The notes under the pieces are model-generated. The model worked only from the letters and a program-made list of their open reading frames with translations, was not told the DNA's origin and made no database searches. Made by a program: the position numbers and the translations under genes. Positions 47,856 through 62,072 of a DNA stretch of 64,000 nucleotides are shown piece after piece. The stretch is from Roseovarius sp. (GTDB lineage: Bacteria; Pseudomonadota; Alphaproteobacteria; Rhodobacterales; Rhodobacteraceae): assembly GCA_014359765.1 (NCBI GenBank), contig JACIYT010000002.1, forward strand, positions 62,001 through 126,000. The letters run 5' to 3'. Each line of letters begins with the position of its first letter. Position 1 is the stretch's first letter.

Positions 47856-49040
47856 TCAGGCCTTTTCGTAGAGCGTGACCACGCAGGCCCCGCCCAGGCC
47901 GAGATTGTGCTGAAGCGCGAGGCGCGCGCCCTCGACCTGCCGCGCATCGGCCTGGCCGCGCAGTTGCTGGACGAGCTCGGTGCATTGCGCAAGCCCGGTC
48001 GCGCCCAGCGGGTGCCCCTTGGACAACAGCCCGCCCGAGGGATTGGTCACATACTTGCCGCCATAGGTATTGTCGCCGTCATCGACGAATTTCCCGCCGT
48101 CGCCGCGGGCGCACAGGCCGAGCGCCTCATAGGTGATCAGCTCGTTCTGGGCAAAACAGTCGTGCAGCTCGACCACGTCCACATCCTCGGGTCCGATGCC
48201 CGCGGCCTCATAGACCTGATCGGCGGCGCGCCGCGCCATCGAGAAGCCGACGACCTCGCGCATGTCATGGGCGTTGAAGGTCTCCGGGCCGTCCGTCGTC
48301 ATCGCCTGCGCCGCGATGCGCACCGAACTGTCGAGCCCGTGCCGGTCGGCGAAATCCTTCGAGCAGACGATCGCCGCCGCCGCGCCGCAGGTCGGCGGGC
48401 AGGCCATGAGCTTCGTCATCACGCCGGGCCAGACAACCTGGGCGGCGAGAACCTCGTCGGCGGTCACTTCCTGCCGGAACAGGGCAACGGGATTGCGGGC
48501 GGCATGGCGGCTGGCCTTGGCGCGGATCTTCGCGAAGGTTTCGAGCGTGGTGCCGAATTCGTCCATATGCGCCTTGCCGGCGCCGCCGAAATACCGCAGC
48601 GCCAGCGGAATTTCCGGGTTGCCCACGAGCGCGTCGGTCTCCTCGTCAAAGGCGGCAAAGGGGCTGACACGGTCGCGGAACATGGCGCCGATCGCACCGG
48701 GCTGCATCTGCTCGAAGCCGAGCGCGAGCGCGCAGTCCACCGCGCCGCTTTCGACCGCCTGGCGCGCGAGAAACAGCGCCGAGGAGCCGGTCGAGCAGTT
48801 GTTGTTCACGTTCACCATCGGAATCCCGGTCATGCCGACCTGGTAGAGCGCGCGCTGCCCGCAGGTGCTGTCGCCATAGACATAGCCGACATAGGCCTGC
48901 TGCACCTTGTCATAGTCGAGCCCCGCATCCGCGAGCGCGCTGCGGGTCGCGGCGGCGGCCATCACGTCGTAGCTCTCCGATTTGCCCGGCTTCTGGAACG
49001 GGACCATTCCCACGCCGGTGATACAGGCCTTGCTGGTCAT
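47856..49040 (-). CDS. SCP2-type thiolase (lipid-transfer-protein thiolase)
   Basis: A 394-residue thiolase of the SCP2/SCPx type. The nucleophile Cys82 is in VNVNNNCSTGSSAL. The second and third sites are VELHDCFAQNE and GLLSKGHPLGATGLAQC, with active-site His. It cleaves a 3-oxoacyl-CoA; SCP2-type thiolases favour 2-methyl-branched chains. A palindrome of the island regulon (49105-49122) lies 65 bp upstream, so this gene probably leads the minus operon through the SDR and perhaps the carboxylase genes. Confidence 0.9.
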   Translation of the reverse strand: MTSKACITGVGMVPFQKPGKSESYDVMAAAATRSALADAGLDYDKVQQAYVGYVYGDSTCGQRALYQVGMTGIPMVNVNNNCSTGSSALFLARQAVESGAVDCALALGFEQMQPGAIGAMFRDRVSPFAAFDEETDALVGNPEIPLALRYFGGAGKAHMDEFGTTLETFAKIRAKASRHAARNPVALFRQEVTADEVLAAQVVWPGVMTKLMACPPTCGAAAAIVCSKDFADRHGLDSSVRIAAQAMTTDGPETFNAHDMREVVGFSMARRAADQVYEAAGIGPEDVDVVELHDCFAQNELITYEALGLCARGDGGKFVDDGDNTYGGKYVTNPSGGLLSKGHPLGATGLAQCTELVQQLRGQADARQVEGARLALQHNLGLGGACVVTLYEKA

Positions 49041-49104: not shown

Positions 49105-49122
49105 TTCTACCACTTGTTAGAT
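49105..49122. promoter_or_regulatory. Island palindrome, site 1 (thiolase operon promoter)
   Basis: TTCTACCA-CT-TGTTAGAT matches the consensus TTCTAACA-NN-TGTTAGAA with two mismatches. On the minus strand a TTGACA (49151 to 49146) lies upstream, so the operator would fall at or just after the start of the thiolase transcript. Confidence 0.7.
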
Positions 49123-49244: not shown

Positions 49245-50411
49245 TCATTCCTCCGGCTTGCCCAGGATCTCGTCGGTATGTTCGCCCAGCCGGGGGGCGG
49301 GGCGGTGATCGGCGCGGGCCGGCGTGGCGGAAAAGCGCACGGGCGGGCGCGTCGTCCAGATCTCTCCCTCGGTCGGATGCGCGAGCCGCTGAAAGAAGCC
49401 CGTCGCCGCCAGGTGCGGGTCGTCGGGCAGCTCGGGAAGGGAGCGCACCGGCATGGCGGGGATGTCGGCCTCTGCCATCAGGTCCAGCCATTCCTGCGTC
49501 GGGCGGGTCAGCGCGATCTGCGCCACGATGTCGTAGAACGCGCCGATATTCCGACTGCGCAGGCGCATGTCCGTGACCCAGGGATGTTCGGCCATGTCGT
49601 CGCGCCCCACCGCCCGAAAGAACCGTTCCCATTGCGCATCGGTATAGGGCAGGATCGTGATGTAGCCATCGGCGGTGCGCAACGGGCGACGGTGCGGCAC
49701 CAGCATGCGCGCATAGCCGAAATCCTGCGGCCGGTCCTCGAACGTGGCACCGTCCAGATGTTCGACCAGAAGGAAGGCGGTCAGCGTCTCGAACATCGGC
49801 ACCTCGACATGCTGCGCCTCGCCGGTGCGCTGGCGGTGAAACAGCGCCGCCATGATGGCATAGGCGGCCGTCACCCCGCCCAGCTTGTCGGCGATGATCG
49901 TCGGGGCATAGTCGGGCGCGGCCTCGGGGTCGCGCATGGTGGCAAGGCTGGCGAATCCCGATGCGGACTGCACGATGTCATCGAAGGCGGGCTTGGCGGC
50001 ATATGGGCCGTCCTGGCCGAAACCCGTGGCCGACACGGTGATCAGCTTCGGGTTCTCGCAGCGCAGCGAATCCGGGTCGAGCGAAAGGCGGGCGAGCGCG
50101 GCGGGCCGGATGCTCGAGATCATCACGTCGGCCGTGGAAAGGAGCTTGCGCAGCTGGGCGCGCCCGGTCTCCGACTTGAGGTCGAGCACGATGCTGCGCT
50201 TGTTGCGGTTGGTGTTGAGGAAGGCCGCGCCCATGCCGGGATTGCGCGCCGGCTGGATTTCCCGCAGGAGATCGCCCTCCGGCCGCTCGACCTTGATCAC
50301 ATCCGCCCCCAGATCGCCGAGCATCTGCGTGGCGAGCGGGCCGAAGGCGACCGAGGTCATGTCGATGATCCTGACGCCATCGAGTATCGCGGCTCCGGGG
50401 CTCGTGGTCAT
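49245..50411 (-). CDS. CaiB/BaiF family (class III) CoA-transferase
   Basis: A 388-residue family III CoA-transferase. It starts with the typical LDGVRIIDMTSVAFGPLATQMLGD, then GADVIKVERPEGDLLRE and NKRSIVLDLKSETG. The active-site region reads PAFDDIVQSASGFASL, with Asp as expected for a true transferase; the racemase GHD motif is absent. It would exchange CoA between acids in the pathway. The ATG at 50411 has an AAGGA ribosome-binding site; 42 bases of upstream frame were rejected. It is divergent from the DUF35 gene and shares operator site 2 with it. Confidence 0.9.
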   Translation of the reverse strand: MTTSPGAAILDGVRIIDMTSVAFGPLATQMLGDLGADVIKVERPEGDLLREIQPARNPGMGAAFLNTNRNKRSIVLDLKSETGRAQLRKLLSTADVMISSIRPAALARLSLDPDSLRCENPKLITVSATGFGQDGPYAAKPAFDDIVQSASGFASLATMRDPEAAPDYAPTIIADKLGGVTAAYAIMAALFHRQRTGEAQHVEVPMFETLTAFLLVEHLDGATFEDRPQDFGYARMLVPHRRPLRTADGYITILPYTDAQWERFFRAVGRDDMAEHPWVTDMRLRSRNIGAFYDIVAQIALTRPTQEWLDLMAEADIPAMPVRSLPELPDDPHLAATGFFQRLAHPTEGEIWTTRPPVRFSATPARADHRPAPRLGEHTDEILGKPEE

Positions 50412-50522: not shown

Positions 50523-50558
50523 TTGACATTTTCTAACATCTGTTAGGAAAATGCGCAA
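50523..50558. promoter_or_regulatory. Overlapping divergent promoters with island palindrome, site 2
   Basis: TTCTAACA-TC-TGTTAGGA (50531-50548) has one mismatch to the consensus. Facing plus, TTGACA at 50523-50528 is a perfect -35. Facing minus, TTGCGC (50558 to 50553) and TAGAAA (50535 to 50530) are 17 bases apart. One bound protein would block both the CaiB and DUF35 transcripts. Confidence 0.8.
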
Positions 50559-50626: not shown

Positions 50627-51010
50627 ATGACCGATACCGATACCGCCGGGCCTGACGCGACGTTCCGAAAGGGGCTCGAGAACGGGGAGATCCTGCTGCC
50701 CCGCTGCGACGATTGCGGGGCGTTTCACTTCTTTCCCCGCATCCTGTGCCCGCATTGCCATGGCAGCGCGCTCACCTGGCACCGCGCGAGCGGCCGGGGC
50801 CGGGTCCACACCACGACGGTCGTGCGCCAGAAGCCGGAGCGCGGCGGCAACTACAATATCTGCATGGTGGAACTCGAGGAGGGCGTGCGCATGATGAGCC
50901 GGGTCGAGGGAATCGCCCCCGAGGATGTCGCCATCGACATGCCGGTGACCGCCTTCGTGGGCGAGGCCGACGGGAACCGGATCGTGCTCTGCAAGCCGGG
51001 GAGGGACTGA
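50627..51010 (+). CDS. DUF35 OB-fold/zinc-ribbon partner of a thiolase-fold enzyme
   Basis: A 127-residue protein. The zinc ribbon is CDDCGAFHFFPRILCPHC, two CxxC pairs. The remainder is an OB-fold with a Lys/Arg-rich first strand and the typical YNICMVELEEGVRMMSRVEG. DUF35 proteins bind next to a thiolase-fold protein and accept or hold the acyl-CoA. It is followed after 3 bp by a Cys-less thiolase homologue, the arrangement known from Ltp2-ChsH2 of steroid side-chain degradation and from archaeal thiolase/HMGCS complexes. First gene of the operator site 2 plus operon, with a good AGGGAGG ribosome-binding site. Confidence 0.88.
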   Translation: MTDTDTAGPDATFRKGLENGEILLPRCDDCGAFHFFPRILCPHCHGSALTWHRASGRGRVHTTTVVRQKPERGGNYNICMVELEEGVRMMSRVEGIAPEDVAIDMPVTAFVGEADGNRIVLCKPGRD

Positions 51011-51013
51011 GCC

Positions 51014-52165
51014 ATGAGCCGTGATCTGCGAGGAAAATCCGCCATTGTCGGCACCGGGCACGCGGGCTTTGGCGAGGCGCATGGGCTGACGGCCTATGAC
51101 ATCATGGCGCAGGCCGCGCAGGCCGCGCTGGCGGATGCCGGGCTGAAACTCGGCGATGTGGACGGGCTGTTCTGCACCATGATGGAGGACAGCATGCCCG
51201 CGCTGATGGCCGCGGAATATCTCGGCATCACGCCGCGGTTCATTGACGGCACCATGACCGGCGGTTCGTCTTTCGTGAACTACCTGACCTCCGCCACCCT
51301 GGCGCTGGAGGCGGGGCTGTGCGATGTCGCGCTGATCGTCTATGGCTCCAACCAGCGCACCGCCTCGGGCAAGCTGGTGACGGCCTCGCGCCCGCCGGCC
51401 TATGAGGCCCCCTACAACCCGCGCTATCCGATTTCCGCCTATGCGATGGCGGCGGCGCGGCACATGCATGTTTATGGCACCACGCGCGAACAGCTTGCCG
51501 ATGTGGCGGTGGCGGCGCGCGCCTGGGCGCAGCACAATCCCGAAGCCTTCGAGCGCGGCCCGCTGAGCCGGGAGGATGTGATGGGTGCGCGCATGGTGAA
51601 CGACCCGCTGAGCGTGCGCGACTGCTGCCTGGTGACCGATGGCGGCGGCGCCATCGTGATGGTCCGCGCCGAGCGCGCGCGCGACTTTCCCAAGGCGCCG
51701 GTCTATGTGCTGGGCAGCGCGGCCGAAAGCTCGCACCGGCAGATTTCGCAGATGAAGGATTTCACCGTGACGGCGGCGCGCGAGTCGGGCCGGCGCGCCC
51801 TTGCCGCGGCCGGTGTCGCTGCCGCCGATATCCAGGTGGTCGAGCTTTACGATGCCTTCACCATCAACACGATCCTGTTTCTGGAGGATCTCGGTTTCTG
51901 CGCCAAGGGCGAGGGCGGCGCCTTTGTCGAGGGTGGGCGCATCGCGCCGGGCGGCGCCCTGCCGGTGAATACCAATGGCGGCGGCCTGTCCTGCGTGCAT
52001 CCGGGCATGTATGGCATCTTTACCGTCATCGAGGCGGCGCGCCAGATCCGCGGCGATGCGCCCGGCATCCAGCTGAAGAACGTGGACCTCGCGCTTGCCC
52101 ATGGCAATGGCGGTGTGTTGTCCAGCCAGGTCACCGCGATCCTCGGATCGCAGGCCACCGTCTGA
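51014..52165 (+). CDS. Thiolase-fold protein lacking the nucleophile Cys, Ltp2-like retro-aldolase candidate
   Basis: A 383-residue thiolase-fold protein. Where SCP2 thiolases have NNNCSTGSS this reads IDGTMTGGSSFVN, with Met81 in place of the nucleophilic Cys. The HDCF motif is replaced by VELYDAFTINT (Tyr279), and the C-terminal GHPLGATG by SCVHPGMYGIF. Tyr in place of Cys is what is known of the steroid aldolase Ltp2, which works with a DUF35 partner to split a 3-hydroxyacyl-CoA into a ketone or aldehyde plus acyl-CoA. The DUF35 gene is immediately upstream. A retro-aldolase role is therefore the best inference; a non-decarboxylating scaffold is the alternative. Confidence 0.8.
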   Translation: MSRDLRGKSAIVGTGHAGFGEAHGLTAYDIMAQAAQAALADAGLKLGDVDGLFCTMMEDSMPALMAAEYLGITPRFIDGTMTGGSSFVNYLTSATLALEAGLCDVALIVYGSNQRTASGKLVTASRPPAYEAPYNPRYPISAYAMAAARHMHVYGTTREQLADVAVAARAWAQHNPEAFERGPLSREDVMGARMVNDPLSVRDCCLVTDGGGAIVMVRAERARDFPKAPVYVLGSAAESSHRQISQMKDFTVTAARESGRRALAAAGVAAADIQVVELYDAFTINTILFLEDLGFCAKGEGGAFVEGGRIAPGGALPVNTNGGGLSCVHPGMYGIFTVIEAARQIRGDAPGIQLKNVDLALAHGNGGVLSSQVTAILGSQATV

Positions 52166-52188
52166 GGGCGATCAGGGGAGGAAAGATC

Positions 52189-53046
52189 ATGCCACTGGAT
52201 TTCGACGCATTGTCCAACTGGGAATTCGAGGAGATCACGCAGACGCTGACCGAGCGCGACACGATCCTCTACGCGCTCGGCCTCGGCTTTGGCGCGGATC
52301 CCACCGACCGGCGGGAGCTGGCCTTCGTTTACGAGGACGGCCTCAGGGCGGTGCCCTCGATGGCGGTCACCATGGGCTATCCCGGCTTCTGGCTGCGCGA
52401 TCCCCGGACCGGGGTCAACTGGCAGAAGGTGCTGCATGGCGAGCAATGGCTCGATATCTACCGGCCGCTGCCGGTCAAGGGCAGGATCATCGGCCGCACC
52501 CGGATCGACTTCATCTCCGACAAGGGCGCGGGCAAGGGCGCGGTCATCTATCAGAGCCGCGACATCATCGACGCCGACAGCGGCGAGAAACTGGCGCGGG
52601 TCGCGATGTCGGCCTTCTGCCGGGGCGATGGCGGGTTCGGCGGCGAGAACCGGCCCGGCCCGGCGCCCGCCGCGCTGCCCGAGCGCGCGCCCGATCACGT
52701 CTGTGATATCGCCACCCTGCCGCAGCAGGCGCTCATCTATCGGCTCAGCGGCGATTACAACCCGCTTCATGCCGATCCCGATGTGGCCCGTTCGGTGGGC
52801 TTCGAGCGTCCGATCCTGCACGGCCTCGCGACCTACGGGCTGGCGGCGCGCGCGATCCTCCAGAGCCTGCTGGACTACGACGCGGCCCGTCTCGTCGGGC
52901 TGGACGTGCGGTTCTCGGCGCCGGTCTATCCCGGCGAAACCGTGCGCTTCGAGATCTGGGACGAGGACGGCGAGGCGCGGTTTCGCGCGCTGATCCCGGC
53001 CCGGGACGCGGTGGTTCTGAACAACGGCGCCGCGCGCTTCGCGTGA
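52189..53046 (+). CDS. (R)-specific enoyl-CoA hydratase, MaoC/hydratase-2 type, double hotdog
   Basis: A 285-residue protein consisting of two hotdog folds, as in eukaryotic MFE2 hydratase 2. The C-terminal half holds the hydratase 2 signature YRLSGDYNPLHADPDVAR followed by GFERPILHGLATYG; the Asp and His are the catalytic dyad. It hydrates a trans-2-enoyl-CoA to the (R)-3-hydroxyacyl-CoA. The ATG is preceded by GGGGAGGAAAG. It is between the Ltp2-like gene and the racemase in one plus operon. Confidence 0.9.
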   Translation: MPLDFDALSNWEFEEITQTLTERDTILYALGLGFGADPTDRRELAFVYEDGLRAVPSMAVTMGYPGFWLRDPRTGVNWQKVLHGEQWLDIYRPLPVKGRIIGRTRIDFISDKGAGKGAVIYQSRDIIDADSGEKLARVAMSAFCRGDGGFGGENRPGPAPAALPERAPDHVCDIATLPQQALIYRLSGDYNPLHADPDVARSVGFERPILHGLATYGLAARAILQSLLDYDAARLVGLDVRFSAPVYPGETVRFEIWDEDGEARFRALIPARDAVVLNNGAARFA

Positions 53047-53068
53047 GGCGGGAGAGGAGACGAGAAAG

Positions 53069-54190
53069 ATGGCCCAGCCCCTCAAGGACATCCTCGTGCT
53101 GGATTTCAGCACGCTTCTGCCCGGCCCGATGGCCACGCTCATGCTGTCGCAGGCCGGCGCCGAGGTGATCAAGTTCGAGCGCCCCGGAACCGGCGAGGAT
53201 GCCCGCCTCACCGAGCCCGGCTTTGACGGCGAGAGCATCGGCTTTGCCGTGCTGAACCATGGCAAGCAATCCGTGGCGCTCGACCTGAAGTCGCCACAGG
53301 CGATGCAGGTCCTGCGCCCGCTGATCGAGAAGGCCGACGTTCTGGTGGAACAGTTCCGCCCCGGGGTCATGGACCGGCTCGGCCTGGGATACGAGGCGCT
53401 GCGCGCGATCAATCCGGGGCTCATCTACTGTTCGATCACGGGCTATGGTCAGGACGGGCCCAAGGCCGCCGTCGCCGGGCATGACCTGAATTATGTCGGC
53501 GATGCGGGGATCCTCTCGCTGAGCCGCGGACCGGATGCGAACCCGACGATGCCCTTCGGCCTCATTGCCGATATCGGCGGCGGCACCTATCCCGCGGTGG
53601 TCAACATCCTGCTCGCGCTGATGGCGCGCCAGCAGAGCGGCGAGGGCACGCATCTCGATATCGCGATGGCCGAGGGGGCCTTTGCCTTCGCCTACTGGGC
53701 CCATGCCGAGGGCGTGATCGCCGGGCAGGAGATCGCCAACGCGGACAGCCGCCTGACCGGCCGTCTGGCGCGCTACCGTCTCTACACCGCCGCCGATGGG
53801 CGGCAGATCGCGGTCGGCGCGCTCGAGGAGAAATTCTGGCAGGCCTTCTGCGACGTGATCGGTCAGCCCGCCGGGCTGCGCGATGACTGGCGCGACCCGG
53901 AGCCCTGCATCGCCGAGGTCGCGCGCCGCCTGGCGAGCCAGCCCTCGACCCACTGGGAGCCCCTGCTGGCCGCGGCGGATTGCTGTTGCAGCGTGGTGCG
54001 AACCCCCGCCGAGGCGGCAAGGGATCCGCATTTCGCGGCGCGGGGTGTCTTCGATCGCAAGATCGACATCGCGGGCCGGATCGCCCCGGCGCTGCCATTG
54101 CCGATCGCGCCGCAATTCCGCCCCCCGCAGACCGAGGTCGGCCGGGCCGCGAAACTGGGCGCGGACAATCGCCGATACGGCGCGCAATAG
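53069..54190 (+). CDS. Alpha-methylacyl-CoA racemase (CaiB family)
   Basis: A 373-residue family III protein with the racemase active-site set: His138 in AGHDLNYVG, Asp168 in GLIADIGGG and Glu253 in VGALEEKFW. In the mycobacterial racemase MCR the residues are His126, Asp156 and Glu241, so all three are offset by exactly 12. It epimerises the 2-methyl carbon of (R)- and (S)-2-methylacyl-CoA so that stereospecific dehydrogenases can act. That implies a 2-methyl-branched substrate. It is the last gene of the operon that begins with the DUF35 gene. Confidence 0.88.
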   Translation: MAQPLKDILVLDFSTLLPGPMATLMLSQAGAEVIKFERPGTGEDARLTEPGFDGESIGFAVLNHGKQSVALDLKSPQAMQVLRPLIEKADVLVEQFRPGVMDRLGLGYEALRAINPGLIYCSITGYGQDGPKAAVAGHDLNYVGDAGILSLSRGPDANPTMPFGLIADIGGGTYPAVVNILLALMARQQSGEGTHLDIAMAEGAFAFAYWAHAEGVIAGQEIANADSRLTGRLARYRLYTAADGRQIAVGALEEKFWQAFCDVIGQPAGLRDDWRDPEPCIAEVARRLASQPSTHWEPLLAAADCCCSVVRTPAEAARDPHFAARGVFDRKIDIAGRIAPALPLPIAPQFRPPQTEVGRAAKLGADNRRYGAQ

Positions 54191-54211: not shown

Positions 54212-54254
54212 TTGACGGGCCGACTGCGCCCAAGTATTCTAACAAGTGTTAGAA
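54212..54254 (+). promoter_or_regulatory. Promoter with perfect island palindrome, site 3
   Basis: TTGACG (54212-54217) and TATTCT (54235-54240) are separated by 17 bases. The perfect palindrome TTCTAACA-AG-TGTTAGAA (54237-54254) overlaps the -10 and the expected start point. A protein bound there would block transcription of the six-gene operon downstream. Confidence 0.85.
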
Positions 54255-54260
54255 ATGGTC

Positions 54261-54290
54261 ATGGAGGGCCAGATCATGGAGGGCCAGATG
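54261..54290 (+). repeat. Tandem 15-bp duplication carrying ribosome-binding site and ATG
   Basis: ATGGAGGGCCAGATC is followed by ATGGAGGGCCAGATG. Each copy carries a GGAGGG ribosome-binding site just before the next ATG, so it creates alternative starts for the transglutaminase-like gene (54276 and 54288). Confidence 0.8.
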
Positions 54291-55007
54291 CCAGAGGCAC
54301 GCCATATCCTGCCGAAGGAGGCCGAGCGATTCGTGATGCCTTCGCGTTTCGTTGACAGCGACAGCCCCGAAGTGCAGGAATTCGCCGCCGCAGCATTGCG
54401 CGACCTGCCGCCCGGCGCCTCCAGCCGCGACAAGGCGATCCGCCTGTTCGACGCGGTGCGCGACGGTATCCGCTACGATCCCTACTGCTTTGCCCTCGAC
54501 GAGGACTCCTACCGCGCGAGTCGCATCGCCGGACAGGAGGCGGCGTTCTGCGTTCCCAAGGCGATCCTGCTGGCGGCCTGCCTGCGGGCGGCGGGCATTC
54601 CCGCCGCGCTCGGCTTTGCCGATGTGCGCAACCACCTCAATACCCCCAAGCTCCAGGAGCTGATGGGCACGGACCTGTTCATCTATCACGGCTATGTGCA
54701 GCTGTGGCTGGACGGTGCGCCCTTCAAGGTCACCCCCGCCTTCAACATCGAGCTGTGCGAACGCTTCGGGGTCAAGCCGCTGGTCTTCGACGGCCATCAC
54801 GACGCGCTGTTCCACGAATACGACGAGAAGAACCACCGCCACATGGAATATGTGAATGACCGGGGTCTTTTTTTCGATGCGCCGATGGACGCGTTCCTCA
54901 AGGCCTTCAGCGAGACCTACCCGGCGCTGCGGGAGTTCAACCGCAAGCGCATCGCCGGCGAGATCGCCGTCAACGATGCCGGGTTTGCGAAGGATCCCGC
55001 CTCATGA
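54288..55007 (+). CDS. Transglutaminase-like cysteine protein in the catabolic operon
   Basis: A 239-residue protein of the transglutaminase-like fold. The catalytic Cys is in GQEAAFCVPKAILLAACLRA, followed by GIPAALGFADVRNHL, and the His in YHGYVQLWLDGAPF. The third position, usually Asp, reads KVTPAFN. No signal peptide is present, so it should be cytosolic, where it could act on an acyl-CoA or a peptide bond. I chose the ATG at 54288 because operator site 3 and the predicted start point end at 54254, and the GGAGGG site sits just before it; 54276 is an alternative. It leads the second plus operon and overlaps the MaoC gene by 4 bp. Function in the pathway is unknown. Confidence 0.82.
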   Translation: MPEARHILPKEAERFVMPSRFVDSDSPEVQEFAAAALRDLPPGASSRDKAIRLFDAVRDGIRYDPYCFALDEDSYRASRIAGQEAAFCVPKAILLAACLRAAGIPAALGFADVRNHLNTPKLQELMGTDLFIYHGYVQLWLDGAPFKVTPAFNIELCERFGVKPLVFDGHHDALFHEYDEKNHRHMEYVNDRGLFFDAPMDAFLKAFSETYPALREFNRKRIAGEIAVNDAGFAKDPAS

Positions 55008-55453
55008 AGTATCTCGAGGATTTTCAGCCGGGCGAGGTCTTTCGCTTTCACACCGCCCCGATCAGCGCCGAATCGATCAAGGCGTTTGCCCGGGAATGGG
55101 ATCCGCAGCGGCTCCATACCGACGAGGAATATGCGACGGCCATCCATGGCAGCCTGATCGCCTCGGGCTTTCAGACCATCCTCGAGGTGTTCCGGCCGAT
55201 CATGTCCGAATTCATGGTCAATCTCGCGAATATCGGCGGCATGGGCCTCGACAACCTGCGCTGGCTCAAGCCCGTCCGCCCCGACGAGGCACTGAGTGTC
55301 GAGATCACGATCAATTCGATCACCCCCTCGAAGAGCAAGCCCGACAGGGGCGTGCTCCACTATACGCTGCGCGCGATGAACCCCGAGGGCGAGGTCGTCT
55401 TCACGACCGACACGCCCGTGATGATGAAGAGAAGACCCGATGACAACGACTGA
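55004..55453 (+). CDS. MaoC-like hotdog dehydratase/hydratase
   Basis: A 149-residue single hotdog protein. DFQPGEVFRFHTAPISAESI opens the domain; FAREWDPQRLHTDEEYA corresponds to the MaoC hydratase region but with Asp-Pro-Gln-Arg-Leu-His rather than the full G-D-x-N-P-x-H. IHGSLIASGF follows. It may be a 2-enoyl-CoA hydratase or a thioesterase-like relative. It overlaps the transglutaminase-like gene (ATGA) and the next dehydrogenase by 14 bp, so it is tightly coupled to both. Confidence 0.85.
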   Translation: MKYLEDFQPGEVFRFHTAPISAESIKAFAREWDPQRLHTDEEYATAIHGSLIASGFQTILEVFRPIMSEFMVNLANIGGMGLDNLRWLKPVRPDEALSVEITINSITPSKSKPDRGVLHYTLRAMNPEGEVVFTTDTPVMMKRRPDDND

Positions 55454-56564
55454 CATGGATACAAGCGATCAGAATGATCTTCGCCTGCTGCGCGAAAGCG
55501 TCCGGACGCTCTTTGAGCGGGCCGGCGGGAGCGGGCGGGCGCGCAAGCTGCGCGATGCCGGCGGCGGCTGGGATCCCGAGATGGTGCGCGAACTGGCCGG
55601 CGCCGGCGTGTTCGGCGTGGCGGTGCCCGAGGATCTGGGCGGGCTGGGCATGGGGCTCGGCGCGGGTGGGGTGATCGCCGAGGAGGCCGGGCGCGTACTC
55701 GCGCCGGAGCCGGTCAACCTCACGATCGGGCTGAGCCTCGGGCTTCTGCGGCGGCTCTGTCCGGAACATCCCAGGCTCGCCGAGCTGATCGAGGGCGAGA
55801 CGGTGCTGGCGGTGGCCTGGCAGGAGCGGGGGGCCAATGGCGGACCCGGTGAGGCGACCTGCGGCTATGCCGATGGCAGGCTCGACGGGCGCAAGGCTTG
55901 GGTCGCGGGCGCGGCCGGGGCGCAGGGTTTTCTGGTCGTGGCCAATGGCGAGAGCGGTCCCGTGCTGGCGCTGGCCGAGGCCGGAGCGGACGGGCTGGCG
56001 ATCGAGAACCGCAGGCAGGCCGACGGCAGCGCGCTCGGCGAGCTGTCCTTCGCGAAGACCCCGGCCGAACAGCTGGCCGCCGGTCCACAGGTGGGCGATG
56101 CGCTGGCCGAGGCGGTGAGCGACACCACCGCGCTGGTCGCCGCCGAGCTCGTGGGCCTGAGCGGGCGCGCCCTGGAGATCACGCTGGACTATATCCGCAC
56201 GCGCGAGCAGTTCGACAAGCCGATCGGCGCGTTTCAGGTGCTCCAGCACCGCGCCGTCGATCTGCATGTGATGTGCGAGGTCGCCCAGGCCGGTGTGCGC
56301 GATGCGCTGGCACGGATGGAGGGCACGACCGATGCCCGCCTCCGCGCCCGGCAGGCCAGCCGCGCCAAGGCGCGGGCGGTGACCGCCGCGAAGCGGATCA
56401 CGCGCGAGGCCATCCAGATGCACGGGGCGGTCGGCTATACCGACGAATACGAGGTCGGGCTCTACCTGAACCGGGCGCTGGTGCTGTCGGCCTGGCTGGG
56501 TGACGACGCCTGGCACCGGCGGCTCTGGCTCGAGGCGCGCGAAGAGGAGGGAGCCGCACAATGA
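55440..56564 (+). CDS. Acyl-CoA dehydrogenase subunit, probably non-catalytic partner
   Basis: A 374-residue acyl-CoA dehydrogenase homologue. The FAD-binding C-terminal domain is recognisable (YIRTREQFDKPIGAFQVLQH and QMHGAVGYTDEYEVGLYL). The middle beta-domain is degenerate and lacks the usual (S/T)EP.AGSD motif. No Glu is found at either of the two known catalytic positions: the region reads TALVAAELVGLSG, and the C-terminus has no YEGT-like motif. It is followed by a second dehydrogenase that does carry the motifs. This pair resembles the alpha2beta2 dehydrogenases of steroid degradation, in which only one chain is catalytic. It overlaps the next gene by 4 bp. Confidence 0.85.
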   Translation: MTTTDMDTSDQNDLRLLRESVRTLFERAGGSGRARKLRDAGGGWDPEMVRELAGAGVFGVAVPEDLGGLGMGLGAGGVIAEEAGRVLAPEPVNLTIGLSLGLLRRLCPEHPRLAELIEGETVLAVAWQERGANGGPGEATCGYADGRLDGRKAWVAGAAGAQGFLVVANGESGPVLALAEAGADGLAIENRRQADGSALGELSFAKTPAEQLAAGPQVGDALAEAVSDTTALVAAELVGLSGRALEITLDYIRTREQFDKPIGAFQVLQHRAVDLHVMCEVAQAGVRDALARMEGTTDARLRARQASRAKARAVTAAKRITREAIQMHGAVGYTDEYEVGLYLNRALVLSAWLGDDAWHRRLWLEAREEEGAAQ

Positions 56565-57712
56565 CCGACTGGAACGCCATGAGCGATGCCGAATTCCGCA
56601 AGGAAGTGCGCGCATTCTTCGAGACGGAATATCCCGAAGAGCTGCGCAACCTGTCGCATCGCCCGAAATTCGCCGAGATTGCCCATTGGCACCGCAAGCT
56701 GCACGCAAAGGGCTGGGTCGCGCCGGCCTGGCCCACCGAATATGGCGGGATGGGGCTGAACGCGGCCAAGCTGCTGATCTTCTACGAGGAACAGCAACGC
56801 TGGGGCGTCAATCGCGGGCGCGACATGGGCGTGCAGATGGTCGGACCGCTGATCATCAAGTTCGGCACCCAGAAACAGAAGGATTACTGGCTGCCGCGCA
56901 TCCTCAGCTGCGAGCATATCTGGTGTCAGGGCTATTCGGAACCCGGCGCCGGATCGGATCTGGCCAACCTGCGCACCCGCGCCGATATCGACGGCGACGA
57001 TTTCGTGATCAACGGGCAGAAGATCTGGACCACGATGGCGCATGACGCCACCCATATCTTCATGCTGGTGCGCACCGATCCGAACGCGCCGAAAAAGCAG
57101 CAGGGCATCAGCTTTGTTCTGGCGCCGATGGATCAGCCCGGAATCGAGGTGCGCACGATCACGACCCTCTCGGGCGAGACCGAGTTCTGCGAGGTGTTCT
57201 TCGACGATGCCCGCACCCCGCGCGAGAACCTCGTGGGCGAGCTCAACAAGGGCTGGACGATGGCCAAGGCGCTGCTGAGCTTCGAGCGCATCTTCATCGG
57301 CGCGCCCAACCTCGCGCAGAACGCGCTCGGCCAGCTCGAGAGCTTTGCCCGTGGGCGCGGCGCCTTCGACGATCCGGTGTTCCGCGACCGCTTTGCGCAG
57401 GCGGCGCTCGATGTCGAGGATCACGCGGCGCTTTACGCGCGCTTCGCCGATCAGCTCAAGCGCGGCGAAACCCTCGGCGCCGATGTCTCGATGCTCAAGA
57501 TCTGGGTCACCGAGTGCTTTCAGCGGATCACCGAACTGATGATCGAGGCCGCCGGCCCCGATGGCGGCACGATCGGCCCGCTGCAGGTCGGCAATGTCGG
57601 CGTGGATGTGCTGTCGAGCTTCTACAAGGCGCGTCCCACCACGATCTACGGTGGATCGAACGAGATCCAGCGCAACATCCTGTCCAAGGCCGTTCTCGGA
57701 CTGCCTGGCTGA
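56561..57712 (+). CDS. Acyl-CoA dehydrogenase subunit, catalytic partner
   Basis: A 383-residue acyl-CoA dehydrogenase. It has the substrate-side motif CQGYSEPGAGSDLANLRTRA, the FAD/CoA region IWTTMAHDATHIFMLVRT, and the C-terminal RPTTIYGGSNEIQRNIL. The likely catalytic Glu is in LLSFERIFIGAPN, the position used by isovaleryl-type enzymes. The start overlaps the upstream, apparently non-catalytic homologue by 4 bp, so a heteromeric enzyme is likely. It would introduce the 2,3-double bond in a bulky acyl-CoA. Confidence 0.9.
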   Translation: MTDWNAMSDAEFRKEVRAFFETEYPEELRNLSHRPKFAEIAHWHRKLHAKGWVAPAWPTEYGGMGLNAAKLLIFYEEQQRWGVNRGRDMGVQMVGPLIIKFGTQKQKDYWLPRILSCEHIWCQGYSEPGAGSDLANLRTRADIDGDDFVINGQKIWTTMAHDATHIFMLVRTDPNAPKKQQGISFVLAPMDQPGIEVRTITTLSGETEFCEVFFDDARTPRENLVGELNKGWTMAKALLSFERIFIGAPNLAQNALGQLESFARGRGAFDDPVFRDRFAQAALDVEDHAALYARFADQLKRGETLGADVSMLKIWVTECFQRITELMIEAAGPDGGTIGPLQVGNVGVDVLSSFYKARPTTIYGGSNEIQRNILSKAVLGLPG

Positions 57713-57742: not shown

Positions 57743-58552
57743 ATGTCAGACCGTTATGCAAAATACAACAAGCTGAAATTCGACTATCCGGCCGATCGCG
57801 TCCTGCGCATCACCTTCGACCGCCCCGAGACCTTCAACTCGGTCGATGCCGAAACGCACACGCAGATGACGGATATGTGGATCGACATCGACCGCGACCC
57901 CGATATCAACGCGGTGATCGTGACCGGTGCAGGCAAGGCATTCTCGGCCGGCGGCGATTTCAGCCTGATCGAAAGCATGATGGGCAATTCCTACGAGATC
58001 ATGAAGACCTGGAAAGAGGCCAAGGATCTCGTTTACAACATCATCAACTGCAACAAGCCGATCATTTCCGCGATCAACGGGCCGGCGGCGGGTGCGGGCC
58101 TCGTGGTGGCGATCCTCGCCGACATCTCGATCGCCGGCAAGCGGGCCAAGATCGTCGATGGCCACCCGCGCCTCGGCGTTGCCGCGGGCGATGTCGCGGC
58201 GATCATCTGGCCGTTGCTGACCTCGATGGCCAAGGCGAAATACTACCTGATGACCTGCAAGCCCGTCTCGGGCGAGGAGGCAGAGCGCATCGGCCTCGTG
58301 TCGATGTGCGTCGAGGATGACGAATTGCAGCAGATCGCGCTCGACACCGCGGTGGAACTGGCCAATGCGTCGCAAAGCGCGGTCCGCTGGACGAAGTATT
58401 CGCTCAACAACTGGCTGCGCCAGGCGGGGCCGATCTTCGACGCCTCCACCGCGCTCGAGATGCTCGGCTTCATGGGCGAGGACGTGAAGGAGGGTGTGCT
58501 CTCGCACCGCGAGAAGCGCGCGCCGAACTTCCGCAAGGACTGCCCGCTCTGA
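57743..58552 (+). CDS. Crotonase-fold protein lacking both classical catalytic glutamates
   Basis: A 269-residue crotonase. The oxyanion-hole segments are [17 protein letters not shown] and [20 protein letters not shown]. In enoyl-CoA hydratase the two catalytic Glu lie in GGGCELAM and GxPExxLG; here the aligned regions read GAGLVVAI and [12 protein letters not shown], so both are absent and an Asp occurs in AAGD. It is therefore probably an isomerase, hydrolase or ring-opening enzyme rather than a standard hydratase. It is 30 bp downstream of the dehydrogenase pair with a GGGAGGAA ribosome-binding site. Confidence 0.88.
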
Positions 58553-58572: not shown

Positions 58573-59775
58573 ATGCTCATGCCTGACGACATCTACAGGG
58601 ACATCGCGCAACGCTACGCCGATGCGGCCCGAAAGGCGACGGGCCTGAACAGACGATTCGTGGCGGCCGGTTTCGACCCGGCCGCCATCACATCGCTGGC
58701 GGATCTGACGCGTCTGCCGGTGATGAAGAAGGAAGAACTCATGCAGATTCAGCGCGAGACCCCGCCCTTCGGCGGCTTTCTCGCGGGGGATATGAAGGAT
58801 ATCGCGCGCATCTATGTCTCGCCCGGCCCGATCTTCGAGCCGGCCCTGGGCGGCGGCGGCGGCCATGGGCTCGACCTGCTGTTTCGCGCGGCCCGCGTGG
58901 GCGCGGGGGATATCGTCCTGAACACGTGGATGTATCATCTCGTGCCGGCGGGGCTGCTCTTTGACGAGGCGGCGCGGGCGGCTGGCGCCACGGTGATTCC
59001 GGGCGGTGTGGGCAACACCGATTTGCAGGCGCAGATCATCGTCGAGACCGGCGTGACCGCGATCGCCGCCTCGACCGCCTTCTTCCTGACGCTCGCCGAC
59101 AAGGTGATCGCGACATACGGTCGCGACGCATGGAAGGTGAAGACCGCCTTTCTGGGCGGCGAGATGGGCGACTGGATGGCCAAGCGCCGGCATATCGAGG
59201 CGGAATACGGGGTCTCGACCTGGGCGGCCTATGCCACGGCCGATCTCGGGATGGTGGCCTATGAGGACGGCGGCGAGGGCTACCGGGTGCATCCCGACCG
59301 GGTGGTGCAGATCTGCGACCCGCTCAGCGGCGCGCCGATGCCGCACGGTGAGCCCGGTGAGGTCGTCGTGACCACGCGCGACGCGACCTGGCCGATGATC
59401 CGGTTCGGCACCGGCGACAGCGCCTTTGCGCTGGAAAGCAACCCGGACGGCAGCGTGAGCCGCCTGTCGGCCCTCCAGGGGCGGGTTGGCGCCGCCGTCA
59501 AGGTGCGCGAGATCTTCGTCTATCCGCGCGCGATCGAGGAGGTCATCATCGCCACGCCGGGCGCGCGGGCCGCGCAGGCCATCGTCACCCGCGAGAACGA
59601 TCGCGACATGATCCGCCTGTCGCTCGTGCTCGCGAAAGGGGCGGATGCCGCCGCCGCCGAGGCGGCCGCAGCCGAGGCCTTTCGGCAGCACGCGCGGATC
59701 CGTGCGGATGCCGTTGCCATTGTCGGCGACCTTCCCGAGGACGCGCCGCTGATCGTCAACCGCAAGGACGGCTGA
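58573..59775 (+). CDS. PaaK-like AMP-binding protein with altered P-loop
   Basis: A 400-residue protein of the phenylacetate-CoA ligase family. Family features include IRFGTGDSAF and the C-terminal LPEDAPLIVNRKDG with the expected Lys. Where PaaK has an SSGTTG-type P-loop, this protein reads YVSPGPIFEPALGGGGG. It may still form an acyl-AMP, or may have lost that step. A second Met at 58579 is better spaced from the GGGAG ribosome-binding site (8 bases against 2) and could be the true start. It is the last gene of the operon, and a terminator follows at 59792. Confidence 0.85.
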   Translation: MLMPDDIYRDIAQRYADAARKATGLNRRFVAAGFDPAAITSLADLTRLPVMKKEELMQIQRETPPFGGFLAGDMKDIARIYVSPGPIFEPALGGGGGHGLDLLFRAARVGAGDIVLNTWMYHLVPAGLLFDEAARAAGATVIPGGVGNTDLQAQIIVETGVTAIAASTAFFLTLADKVIATYGRDAWKVKTAFLGGEMGDWMAKRRHIEAEYGVSTWAAYATADLGMVAYEDGGEGYRVHPDRVVQICDPLSGAPMPHGEPGEVVVTTRDATWPMIRFGTGDSAFALESNPDGSVSRLSALQGRVGAAVKVREIFVYPRAIEEVIIATPGARAAQAIVTRENDRDMIRLSLVLAKGADAAAAEAAAAEAFRQHARIRADAVAIVGDLPEDAPLIVNRKDG

Positions 59776-59839: not shown

Positions 59840-61153
59840 TCAACTGGCGGCGATTGCCCGGGCGGCGGCGCGCTCACCCCGTTCGCAGATGCCCTCGAGC
59901 AGCAGGCTGATCAGCATTTCCGAGAACGCCTCCAGCGACAGGCTGTCGGGCTGGCCGTCCCTTGTCGGGTCGAACCATTCGACCGTCCAGTTGAGCGCGC
60001 CGAGCATCACCTGCCGCAGGGGCACGATCTTGATGTCCGAGCGGATCGCCCCGGCTTGCTGTGCCTCGCGCAGGATCCCGTCCCAGAGCGTCGCGTATTC
60101 GTAACGGATGTCGCGGTGCCGCTTGCGGAGCTCCCTGGGCAACATGCCGTAGCTGCGGATGTTCGCCGAGGTGAATTCGCTCGCCATGAACAGGAATTGC
60201 ATATGCGCCCAGATGGCGGTGGCGATACGCGCATGGTGATCATGGGGCCGGTCAAGGGCAGCGATGGCCGATCTGACCCCGGTCACGAGGTCGCGCAGCC
60301 CTGCGTTCAGAACCTCATCCACGATCGCGTCCTTGGACTTGAAGTGATAATAGACGCTCCCCGCCTGCATATGCGCCTCCTCGGCGATGCGCCGCAGGGT
60401 TGTCGCCCGGTAGCCGGCATCGCGCAGAACCCGCGCCGCCGCGCGCAGGATCTCGGCGCGTGTGGTCGCGGCCTTGCCGGGGGGGGGCGGGGGAGGCGCG
60501 GGCATGGCCATGACGGTTCGCAGCCCGCGGGTTTCGGCCCGGCGATCGGTGCACATGCCGTCGAGGATGAGCTTGCTCATGCGCCGGGCGAGCACGCTCA
60601 CGGGGTAGCGTTTCACGTCATACCATTCGACCGTCCAGTTCATCGCGCCAAGCACGAACTGACGGATGGCCGAAACCGAGATGTCGGCCCGCAGCAGCCC
60701 GGCGCGCTTGGCGTCCTTCAGGAAATCGTTCCAGAGCTGCGCATAGGCCGCGCGCAATTCCCGATGCGGGGTGCGGGCCTCTTCGGTCAGCATCGGATAG
60801 TTGCGGATATTCGCCGATGTGAAATCGCTGCTGGTGAGAAGGAATGTCAGATGTGTCTCGACGAGCACGGCAAAGGTGGCGCGGAAATCCGTCGCCCCGC
60901 TGTGCGCGGCGCGGACGATGGCGCTGACCTCGCCATGGAGATCGCGCACGCCGATATCGAGGACCTCGTTGAGGATATGCTCCTTGGAGGCGAAGTGGTA
61001 ATAGATGCTGCCGGCTTCGATCCCGGCTTCGCGCGCGATGTCGCGCATGGTTGTCGCATAGTAGCCGTCATGGCGGAACAGGCGCGCCGCGGCGGACAGG
61101 ATCTCGCCCCGCGTTCGTTCCGATTTGCTCTGTTCTTCGTCTGCTTGTGTCAT
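59840..61153 (-). CDS. Tandem double-TetR transcriptional regulator (single-chain pseudo-dimer)
   Basis: A 437-residue protein that contains two complete TetR-family units. Unit 1 has a DNA-binding domain at about residues 14-64 (ATTMRDIAREAGIEAGSIYY) and an effector domain to about 200. A linker of about 28 residues, Pro-rich at 218-226, follows. Unit 2 repeats the domain at about 231-282 (ATTLRRIAEEAHMQAGSVYY) and an effector domain to about 425. TRxEIL, FTSANIR and NWTVEW recur at a constant offset of 217 residues, so the copies are colinear without gaps over at least 165 residues, and the DNA-binding parts are about 60 % identical by eye. Normal TetR proteins are about 200 residues and dimerise. 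The ATG at 61153 is chosen because the longer ORF would run through operator site 4. It likely represses itself and the island. Confidence 0.93.
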   Translation of the reverse strand: MTQADEEQSKSERTRGEILSAAARLFRHDGYYATTMRDIAREAGIEAGSIYYHFASKEHILNEVLDIGVRDLHGEVSAIVRAAHSGATDFRATFAVLVETHLTFLLTSSDFTSANIRNYPMLTEEARTPHRELRAAYAQLWNDFLKDAKRAGLLRADISVSAIRQFVLGAMNWTVEWYDVKRYPVSVLARRMSKLILDGMCTDRRAETRGLRTVMAMPAPPPPPPGKAATTRAEILRAAARVLRDAGYRATTLRRIAEEAHMQAGSVYYHFKSKDAIVDEVLNAGLRDLVTGVRSAIAALDRPHDHHARIATAIWAHMQFLFMASEFTSANIRSYGMLPRELRKRHRDIRYEYATLWDGILREAQQAGAIRSDIKIVPLRQVMLGALNWTVEWFDPTRDGQPDSLSLEAFSEMLISLLLEGICERGERAAARAIAAS

Positions 61154-61208: not shown

Positions 61209-61236
61209 TTGCAATAAATCGAACAGTTGTTAGAAT
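61209..61236. promoter_or_regulatory. Island palindrome, site 4, and promoter in the TetR/SDR divergent gap
   Basis: ATCGAACA-GT-TGTTAGAA (61218-61235) has a perfect right half and two mismatches in the left. Facing plus, TTGCAA (61209-61214) and TAGAAT (61231-61236) are 16 bases apart and overlap the site, so it should control the SDR gene and, by position, the regulator gene itself. Confidence 0.7.
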
Positions 61237-61310: not shown

Positions 61311-62072
61311 ATGCGGGGATTGAACGGAAAGCGCGTGATCGTGACAGGCGGCGGGAGCGGCATCGGTCGCGCGATCTGTCAGCGGTTTGGCGAGGAGGGC
61401 TCCGAGGTCGCCATCTTCGACATGAACGAGGAGGGCGCGAAGGAAACCGCGCGGCTGATCGAGGCGGCCGGCGGCAAGGCCCGGGCCTTCAAGGTGGACA
61501 TCACCGACCGCGCCCAGGTGGACAAGGCGGTTGCCGATTTCGAGGCCGGCGGCCCGATCGACGTTCTGGTGAACAATGCCGGCTGGGACGTGATCAAGCC
61601 CTTCCTCGACACCGATCCCGAGATCTGGAAAAAGGTCATCGACATCAATCTCTACGGCCCGCTGCACATGCATCACGCAGTGCTTCCGGGGATGGTGCGC
61701 AATGGCAGCGGTCGCGTGGTCAACATCGCCTCGGATGCCGGGCGCGTCGGCTCCTCGGGTGAGGCGGTCTATTCCGCCTGCAAGGGCGGGATCATCTCCT
61801 TCACCAAGACCGTGGCGCGCGAACTGGCGCGCAAGGGCATCCAGTTGAACGCCGTTGCGCCGGGGCCGACCGACACGCCGCTCTTTGCCCAGGTGGCCGA
61901 GGGCGAGGCCGGTGCCAAGATCGCCGAGGGGCTCAAGCGGGCCATCCCGATGAAGCGCCTCGCCCAGCCGGGCGACTATCCGGGGATCGTCTGCTTCCTG
62001 TCGTCGGATGACGCGGGCTTCATCACCGGGCAGGTCATTTCCGTCTCGGGTGGCCTGTCGATGCACGGCTGA
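61311..62072 (+). CDS. SDR dehydrogenase, BadH-like (2-hydroxycyclohexanecarboxyl-CoA dehydrogenase type)
   Basis: A 253-residue short-chain dehydrogenase. It has VTGGGSGIGRAICQRFGEEG, VLVNNAGWDVIKPFLDTDPE, LHMHHAVLPGM, VVNIASDAGRVGSSGEAVYS, with Ser-Tyr-Lys in place, and FITGQVISVSGGLSMHG. The LHMHHAVLPGM and NNAGWD segments and the C-terminus match what I recall of BadH, which oxidises 2-hydroxycyclohexanecarboxyl-CoA in alicyclic acid degradation. The true substrate could be another cyclic or branched 3-hydroxyacyl-CoA. It is divergent from the double-TetR gene, shares operator site 4 with it, and ends in a strong terminator. Confidence 0.88.
   Translation: MRGLNGKRVIVTGGGSGIGRAICQRFGEEGSEVAIFDMNEEGAKETARLIEAAGGKARAFKVDITDRAQVDKAVADFEAGGPIDVLVNNAGWDVIKPFLDTDPEIWKKVIDINLYGPLHMHHAVLPGMVRNGSGRVVNIASDAGRVGSSGEAVYSACKGGIISFTKTVARELARKGIQLNAVAPGPTDTPLFAQVAEGEAGAKIAEGLKRAIPMKRLAQPGDYPGIVCFLSSDDAGFITGQVISVSGGLSMHG

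Follow-up and report, generated by a model that had tools for sequence, protein, structure and literature searches.

TetR proteins normally act as homodimers of chains of about 200 residues. How, then, would a natural chain that already carries two TetR units read its operator: alone on one palindrome, or together with a second chain? The question is raised by a Roseovarius gene on the minus strand at 59840..61153 of the window (the whole 64,000-nucleotide stretch of DNA analysed), for which an initial annotation had proposed two full TetR units in a single chain that should bind one palindrome. Translation of the window gave a single open reading frame of 437 aa, which runs from the ATG at 61153, with GAGG immediately 5′ of it, to the stop codon at 59840 without any internal stop. 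Pfam comparison found two TetR_N domains (PF00440, 126.5 bits against a cut-off of 24) and two TetR_C_24 domains (PF17932, 105 bits against a cut-off of 26.4). The chain thus has the TetR_N helix-turn-helix (HTH) plus helical effector domain of the TetR/AcrR family, and carries two complete TetR family regulator (TFR) units in one polypeptide, as had been proposed.

The HTH of unit 1 (residues 18-64, 60962..61102) and that of unit 2 (residues 235-281, 60311..60451) both match PF00440. The effector/dimerisation domain of unit 1 extends over about residues 69-201 (60551..60949; TetR_C_24 match at 92-199) and that of unit 2 over about residues 286-422 (59888..60298; second TetR_C_24 stretch and alignment), both with approximate limits; alignment of the units places the linker at about residues 202-226 (60476..60550). 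Between the two units, 94 of 204 aligned positions are identical (46%), and 35 of 59 (59%) in the DNA-binding parts, close to the 60% estimated by eye in the initial annotation, and both effector-pocket motifs quoted there were found in the translation. The constant offset of 217 residues that it described holds for the DNA-binding part but not elsewhere: the core is shifted by 216 residues and the last helix by 222. Likewise, the linker is indeed Pro-rich in the Roseovarius copy, with 7 prolines, but this is mostly peculiar to that copy, 37 aligned relatives having 1 to 6; its length of 24-27 residues is conserved in them. Among 38 doubles, the HTHs of the N and C units have 12-17 of 22 residues in common, the recognition helices of both units take the form xxAGS(I/V)YYHF. 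When charge complementarity of the interface helices was examined in these doubles, the net charge of the last helix averaged +0.13 in N and -1.5 in C, with wide ranges. The chain also scores 155.9 bits with the ScbR-type autoregulator receptor model NF041196 (cut-off 150), a score which adds two units on a one-unit model, and its gene neighbours are acyl-CoA catabolic.

Fused double TetRs as a kind are already known from other bacteria. The double TetR Mce3R (Rv1963c, PDB 9b7y) occurs naturally in M. tuberculosis, and its structure on DNA has been determined by cryo-EM; the same report cites 204 double TFRs predicted in actinomycetes (PMC11667970). The initial annotation's statement that no characterised natural example was known is therefore not supported, its own proviso that such fusions might prove well described is largely borne out for the kind, and the Roseovarius protein is not the first known natural double TetR. 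According to that report, Mce3R offers a precedent for the single-chain fold, and it resembles the Roseovarius protein in having two complete TetR units in a chain of about 400 aa and in being a divergent, autoregulated regulator of lipid or steroid-type catabolism (PMC11667970), autoregulation being predicted for Roseovarius. A PDB sequence search scored Mce3R at 47.8 bits, below many single TetRs (93.4 bits for 4mxm). Engineered sc-rtTA and its kin also join two TetR moieties head to tail through a peptide linker (PMC1797012); they are artificial, with identical units and an added activation domain, whereas the Roseovarius double is natural and its units have diverged. A search of the open-access literature, which leaves out most subscription journals, brought up no description of a double TetR from Alphaproteobacteria.

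The gene lies in a cluster of acyl-CoA catabolic genes. Divergent from it on the plus strand is a BadH-like SDR gene (61311..62072; 371 bits, below the 431-bit BadH cut-off). On its other side, also on the plus strand, are a homolog of PaaK-like CoA ligases (58573..59775; without a Pfam match and scoring about 100 bits with PaaK models, below their cut-off), an enoyl-CoA hydratase/isomerase gene (57743..58552) and a pair of acyl-CoA dehydrogenase genes (55440-56564 and 56561-57712). A transglutaminase-like gene (about 54261-55007) stands at the head of the acyl-CoA dehydrogenase genes, and further genes encode an OB-fold protein, a thiolase, a MaoC dehydratase and a class III CoA-transferase (50627..54190, plus strand), followed on the minus strand by a class III CoA-transferase (49245-50411) and a thiolase (47856-49040). 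Past the window end, genes for an AMP-dependent ligase, a FadH/OYE-type reductase, acyl-CoA dehydrogenases, biotin-dependent carboxylase subunits and an HMG-CoA-lyase-like protein were found, and plasmid relatives of the cluster carry biotin-dependent carboxylase genes and, in a Sulfitobacter relative (L133), an AtuA-family gene. The carboxylase and lyase genes and the AtuA-family gene suggest branched, alicyclic or terpene-type acids as the substrate. Given the protein family and these neighbours, the inducer is expected to be an acyl-CoA or a related intermediate. AtuR of P. aeruginosa is a single-unit TetR repressor adjoining acyl-CoA catabolic genes. By description, it is likened to the Roseovarius double through such neighbours and through the AtuA-family and biotin-dependent carboxylase genes of the plasmid relatives (AtuR is mentioned in PMC3511530).

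To find relatives, one genome per species was scanned with the full-length chain as query, which biases the list towards doubles; 138 had a relative, of which the best 80 were retained. In 77 of these best 80 of 138 loci, the SDR gene lies next to the regulator gene and is divergent from it. From the 77 loci, the window and three further loci (L124, L133 and L134), 56 distinct intergenic sequences were aligned, and a single strongly conserved inverted repeat was revealed. The palindrome TCTAAC-N4-GTTAGA occurs with at most one mismatch in all 56 regulator/SDR intergenic regions and exactly in 41, and only a 4-base spacer fits these arms. With the arms extended to 7 bases, 70 of the kept loci (at least 12 kb long, among the best 80 of 138) contain 137 sites at up to one mismatch and 148 at up to two, counts that include orthologous sites repeatedly; the wider set comprises 64 distinct sites. 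Sixty permuted palindromes gave no site at up to one mismatch in the same 70 loci and, at up to two, a mean of 0.75 and a maximum of 17. In the annotated Sulfitobacter relative the sites fall within divergent gene pairs.

The predicted operator between the Roseovarius regulator and SDR genes lies at 61219..61234 and reads TCTAACAACTGTTCGA on the minus strand. It is spanned by a sigma-70-like promoter directed towards the SDR gene (TTGCAA-16-TAGAAT, 61209..61236, plus strand), recognised by consensus match. Other predicted operators were found just 5′ of the transglutaminase-like gene (54238..54253), between the divergent CoA-transferase and OB-fold/thiolase genes (50532..50547, one mismatch), 66 bp 5′ of the thiolase gene (49106..49121, one mismatch) and at contig position 130279, which is 4.3 kb past the window and still within the cluster. 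At up to three mismatches the window has 8 matches against a shuffle mean of 1.7, and one of 100 shuffles reached as high. The whole genome has 8 positions at up to one mismatch, of which 5 lie inside a 19.2-kb stretch of its acyl-CoA cluster, and two permuted palindromes had none; at two mismatches the 31 rows obtained are hardly above the 27 of a reversed-pattern control. Of the three sites outside the cluster, one is followed 45 bp downstream by the start of an acyl-CoA dehydrogenase gene (C24), one lies between CoA-transferase and CoA-ligase-like genes (C40) and one about 200 bp 5′ of a GCV_H-like gene (C34).

Does this palindrome belong to the fusion, or is it older? The closest single-unit relatives are 38-51% identical, of the TetR_C_24 type and about 205-240 aa long (for example L095/L145, L101, L105 and L112). 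They share with the double the fold family and the recognition-helix form, and differ in having one unit; following the rule for TetR proteins, they are expected to be homodimers. The region from -200 to +60 of the start was searched in 41 distinct singles, whose sequences had not been used in motif discovery. TCTAAC-N4-GTTAGA was present in 4, 8 and 25 of the 41 at zero, up to one and up to two mismatches, whereas 60 permuted arms averaged 0, 0 and 0.37 and reached at most 0, 0 and 7. Singles at least 37% identical to the query carry it in 24 of 31 cases and those below 37% in 1 of 10, a split chosen post hoc. It is absent from all six singles whose recognition helix has PGS instead of AGS, and 16 of the 41, including a Polaromonas single near the doubles (L135), have no palindrome within two mismatches. 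A spacer of 8 also scores (0, 4 and 13 of 41 at zero, one and two mismatches), and these matches probably represent overlapping CTAAC repeats. The predicted site of the single L145, for example, is TCTAACGTGTGTTAGA, on which a homodimer is assumed. As the singles appear to use a palindromic operator with identical spacing, an assembly of two HTHs of the same geometry would predate the fusion, and the fused chain would bring both HTHs itself. These comparative data agree with the view of the initial annotation that one palindrome serves the two HTHs of the chain; most likely, the double chain replaces the homodimer on a single palindrome, unlike Mce3R.

The tree built to examine the origin of the fusion has 105 rows: 41 singles, and 32 N and 32 C units, all from alphaproteobacterial doubles save those of one Rhodococcus double. 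The 31 alphaproteobacterial N units form one clade (97/92) and the 31 C units another (100/99). The two clades are sisters with support of 88/66, which is not strong, and have long branches; the singles L095 and L144 branch just outside them. The remaining double, from plasmid pDK3 of Rhodococcus sp. DK180 (L132:7971-9293), also has two TetR units in one chain and adjoins acyl-CoA dehydrogenase, MaoC and CoA-transferase genes, but apparently formed separately. Its own N and C units group as sisters (100/94) away from the alphaproteobacterial ones, which implies that tandem duplication and fusion occurred at least twice, and forcing its N unit into the alphaproteobacterial N clade was rejected (AU p 2.4e-5), so that a shared origin is rejected for the N units. 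No TCTAAC-N4-GTTAGA-type palindrome was found at the Rhodococcus locus at up to two mismatches. Within the limits of the 88/66 support, the alphaproteobacterial units thus appear to be sisters that were copied from a single ordinary TetR, separately from the Rhodococcus double. Those of Mce3R, in contrast, belong to distinct TFR subgroups (PMC11667970), and in this narrow sense the Roseovarius protein is not a double of the Mce3R type.

From the observed fusion, its conservation, the duplication seen in the tree and the palindrome recurring at doubles and singles alike, we consider the following course of events likely. In Alphaproteobacteria, tandem duplication and fusion of an ordinary single-unit TetR from an acyl-CoA-catabolism regulator family would have produced the double. 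Connected by about 25 linker residues, its N and C units would pair with each other inside the chain, in imperfect imitation of a TetR homodimer, and place their near-identical recognition helices on the two arms of TCTAACA-N2-TGTT(A/C/T)GA. From the promoter-overlapping site the protein would repress both the gene that encodes it and the divergent SDR gene, and through the four further sites other operons of the surrounding acyl-CoA cluster, which would degrade branched, aromatic or terpene-type acids, until released by an acyl-CoA or a related intermediate. A more tentative version, which we find possible but rather doubtful, holds that this near-symmetric single-chain TetR of independent origin kept the ancestral palindrome while the covalent link allowed its pockets to diverge, so that the monomer integrates two acyl-CoA signals, such as an early and a late intermediate.

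A palindrome by itself does not distinguish pairing within a chain from pairing between chains. Two chains might cooperate, either by holding one palindrome jointly through N-N, C-C or exchanged pairing, the last being compatible with the palindrome alone, or as an Mce3R-like dimer that bridges or loops operators. Mce3R was mostly seen as two single chains dimerised over two DNA duplexes, a C2 dimer in which each chain has its own duplex making up 63% of the particles (PMC11667970), and the Roseovarius cluster offers several predicted operators spaced 1.4 to 7 kb. However, the singles' palindrome is equal to it in size and spacing, which indicates that one HTH pair is enough, the conserved linker length argues against two chains, and engineered TetR chains whose moieties are linked by a peptide fold intramolecularly (PMC1797012). 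We therefore regard cooperation of two chains as unlikely, and pairing within one chain as the better account.

It is more improbable still that one unit is passive, with a single functional HTH or pocket and the other unit retained for folding. Such an arrangement would suit the 30 of 64 distinct sites that have one exact and one variant arm, never both variant at that position. Yet both arms are intact at the other 34, some of the variant arms stem from one orthologous site counted many times, and the two units are conserved equally, at 76% in both DNA-binding parts and 66% in both effector parts. For the first two of these reasons we do not claim arm asymmetry as proof of two different HTHs. 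Nor does the variant arm make the operator nonpalindromic in the narrow sense of Mce3R, whose site is described as nonpalindromic and 25 bp long (PMC11667970), whereas that of Roseovarius is a predicted palindrome.

An artefact of sequencing or assembly that merged two neighbouring genes, for example through slippage at the linker's G run (60480-60500), can practically be dismissed, because both units are in one frame at all 80 loci (best 80 of 138) and the relatives' linkers have no such run; the initial annotation had set a hidden stop between the units as a test beforehand, and none was found. The G run encodes the proline stretch of the Roseovarius linker and is a slippage-prone spot between the units. 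One of the best 80 (L068) lacks its first 66 residues at a contig end.

Taken together, the Roseovarius double TetR is real, conserved and functional-looking, judging by comparative evidence. The combination of sister units, a palindrome common to singles and an origin apart from the Rhodococcus double seems to be undescribed in the open-access literature searched. Doubles with sister units and living singles sharing their operator form a before-and-after pair for the fusion of a homodimeric repressor, which opens questions of stoichiometry, arm preference and separate tuning of the two pockets; with the actinomycete doubles, they indicate natural TetR fusion more than once. They may also provide natural parts for orthogonal repressors without subunit mixing.

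The best 80 of 138 relatives come mainly from Rhodobacterales, with some from Rhizobiales-type bacteria, Hyphomonas and Acidocella and one from Marinobacter. Doubles proved rare in whole-genome searches: they were found in 3 of 385 genomes of the class, with up to four candidates scored per genome (the Roseovarius genome itself, G265, and G342 with two copies), in 4 of 24 genomes of the genus and, in the phylum (n=398), in the Roseovarius genome only. A copy with 60-80% identity is present on 36 plasmid records. This patchy spread and plasmid carriage suggest that the cluster is accessory and moving. Roseobacter plasmids of about 140-450 kb carry the whole regulon (L133 13904, 2336 and 20338, and other plasmid records), and one of those inspected, L134 with a 55% relative, was typed conjugative. 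Phage records gave four weak partial matches (25-26% identity), none of them double. One of the two doubles of G342, on its contig 5 (L143:7135-8470), is fast-diverging and 39-40% identical; no TCTAAC-N4-GTTAGA-type palindrome was found at its locus at up to two mismatches.

Single TetRs also accompany the doubles. A distant single of one family branch lies directly 3′ of the double in seven loci (L079:9443, L080:9445, L082:9444, L083:2751, L084:3862, L085:2965 and L087:9363), with no such palindrome nearby in the four distinct ones examined. A separate single of the same wider family as the double is present in L079:13699, L080:13701, L086:9586, L087:13560, L025:13188 and L068:4289, and these singles have palindromes CCTAAC-N4-GTTAG(G/T) before their starts; cross-talk between double and single, or their use as paired regulators, is possible.
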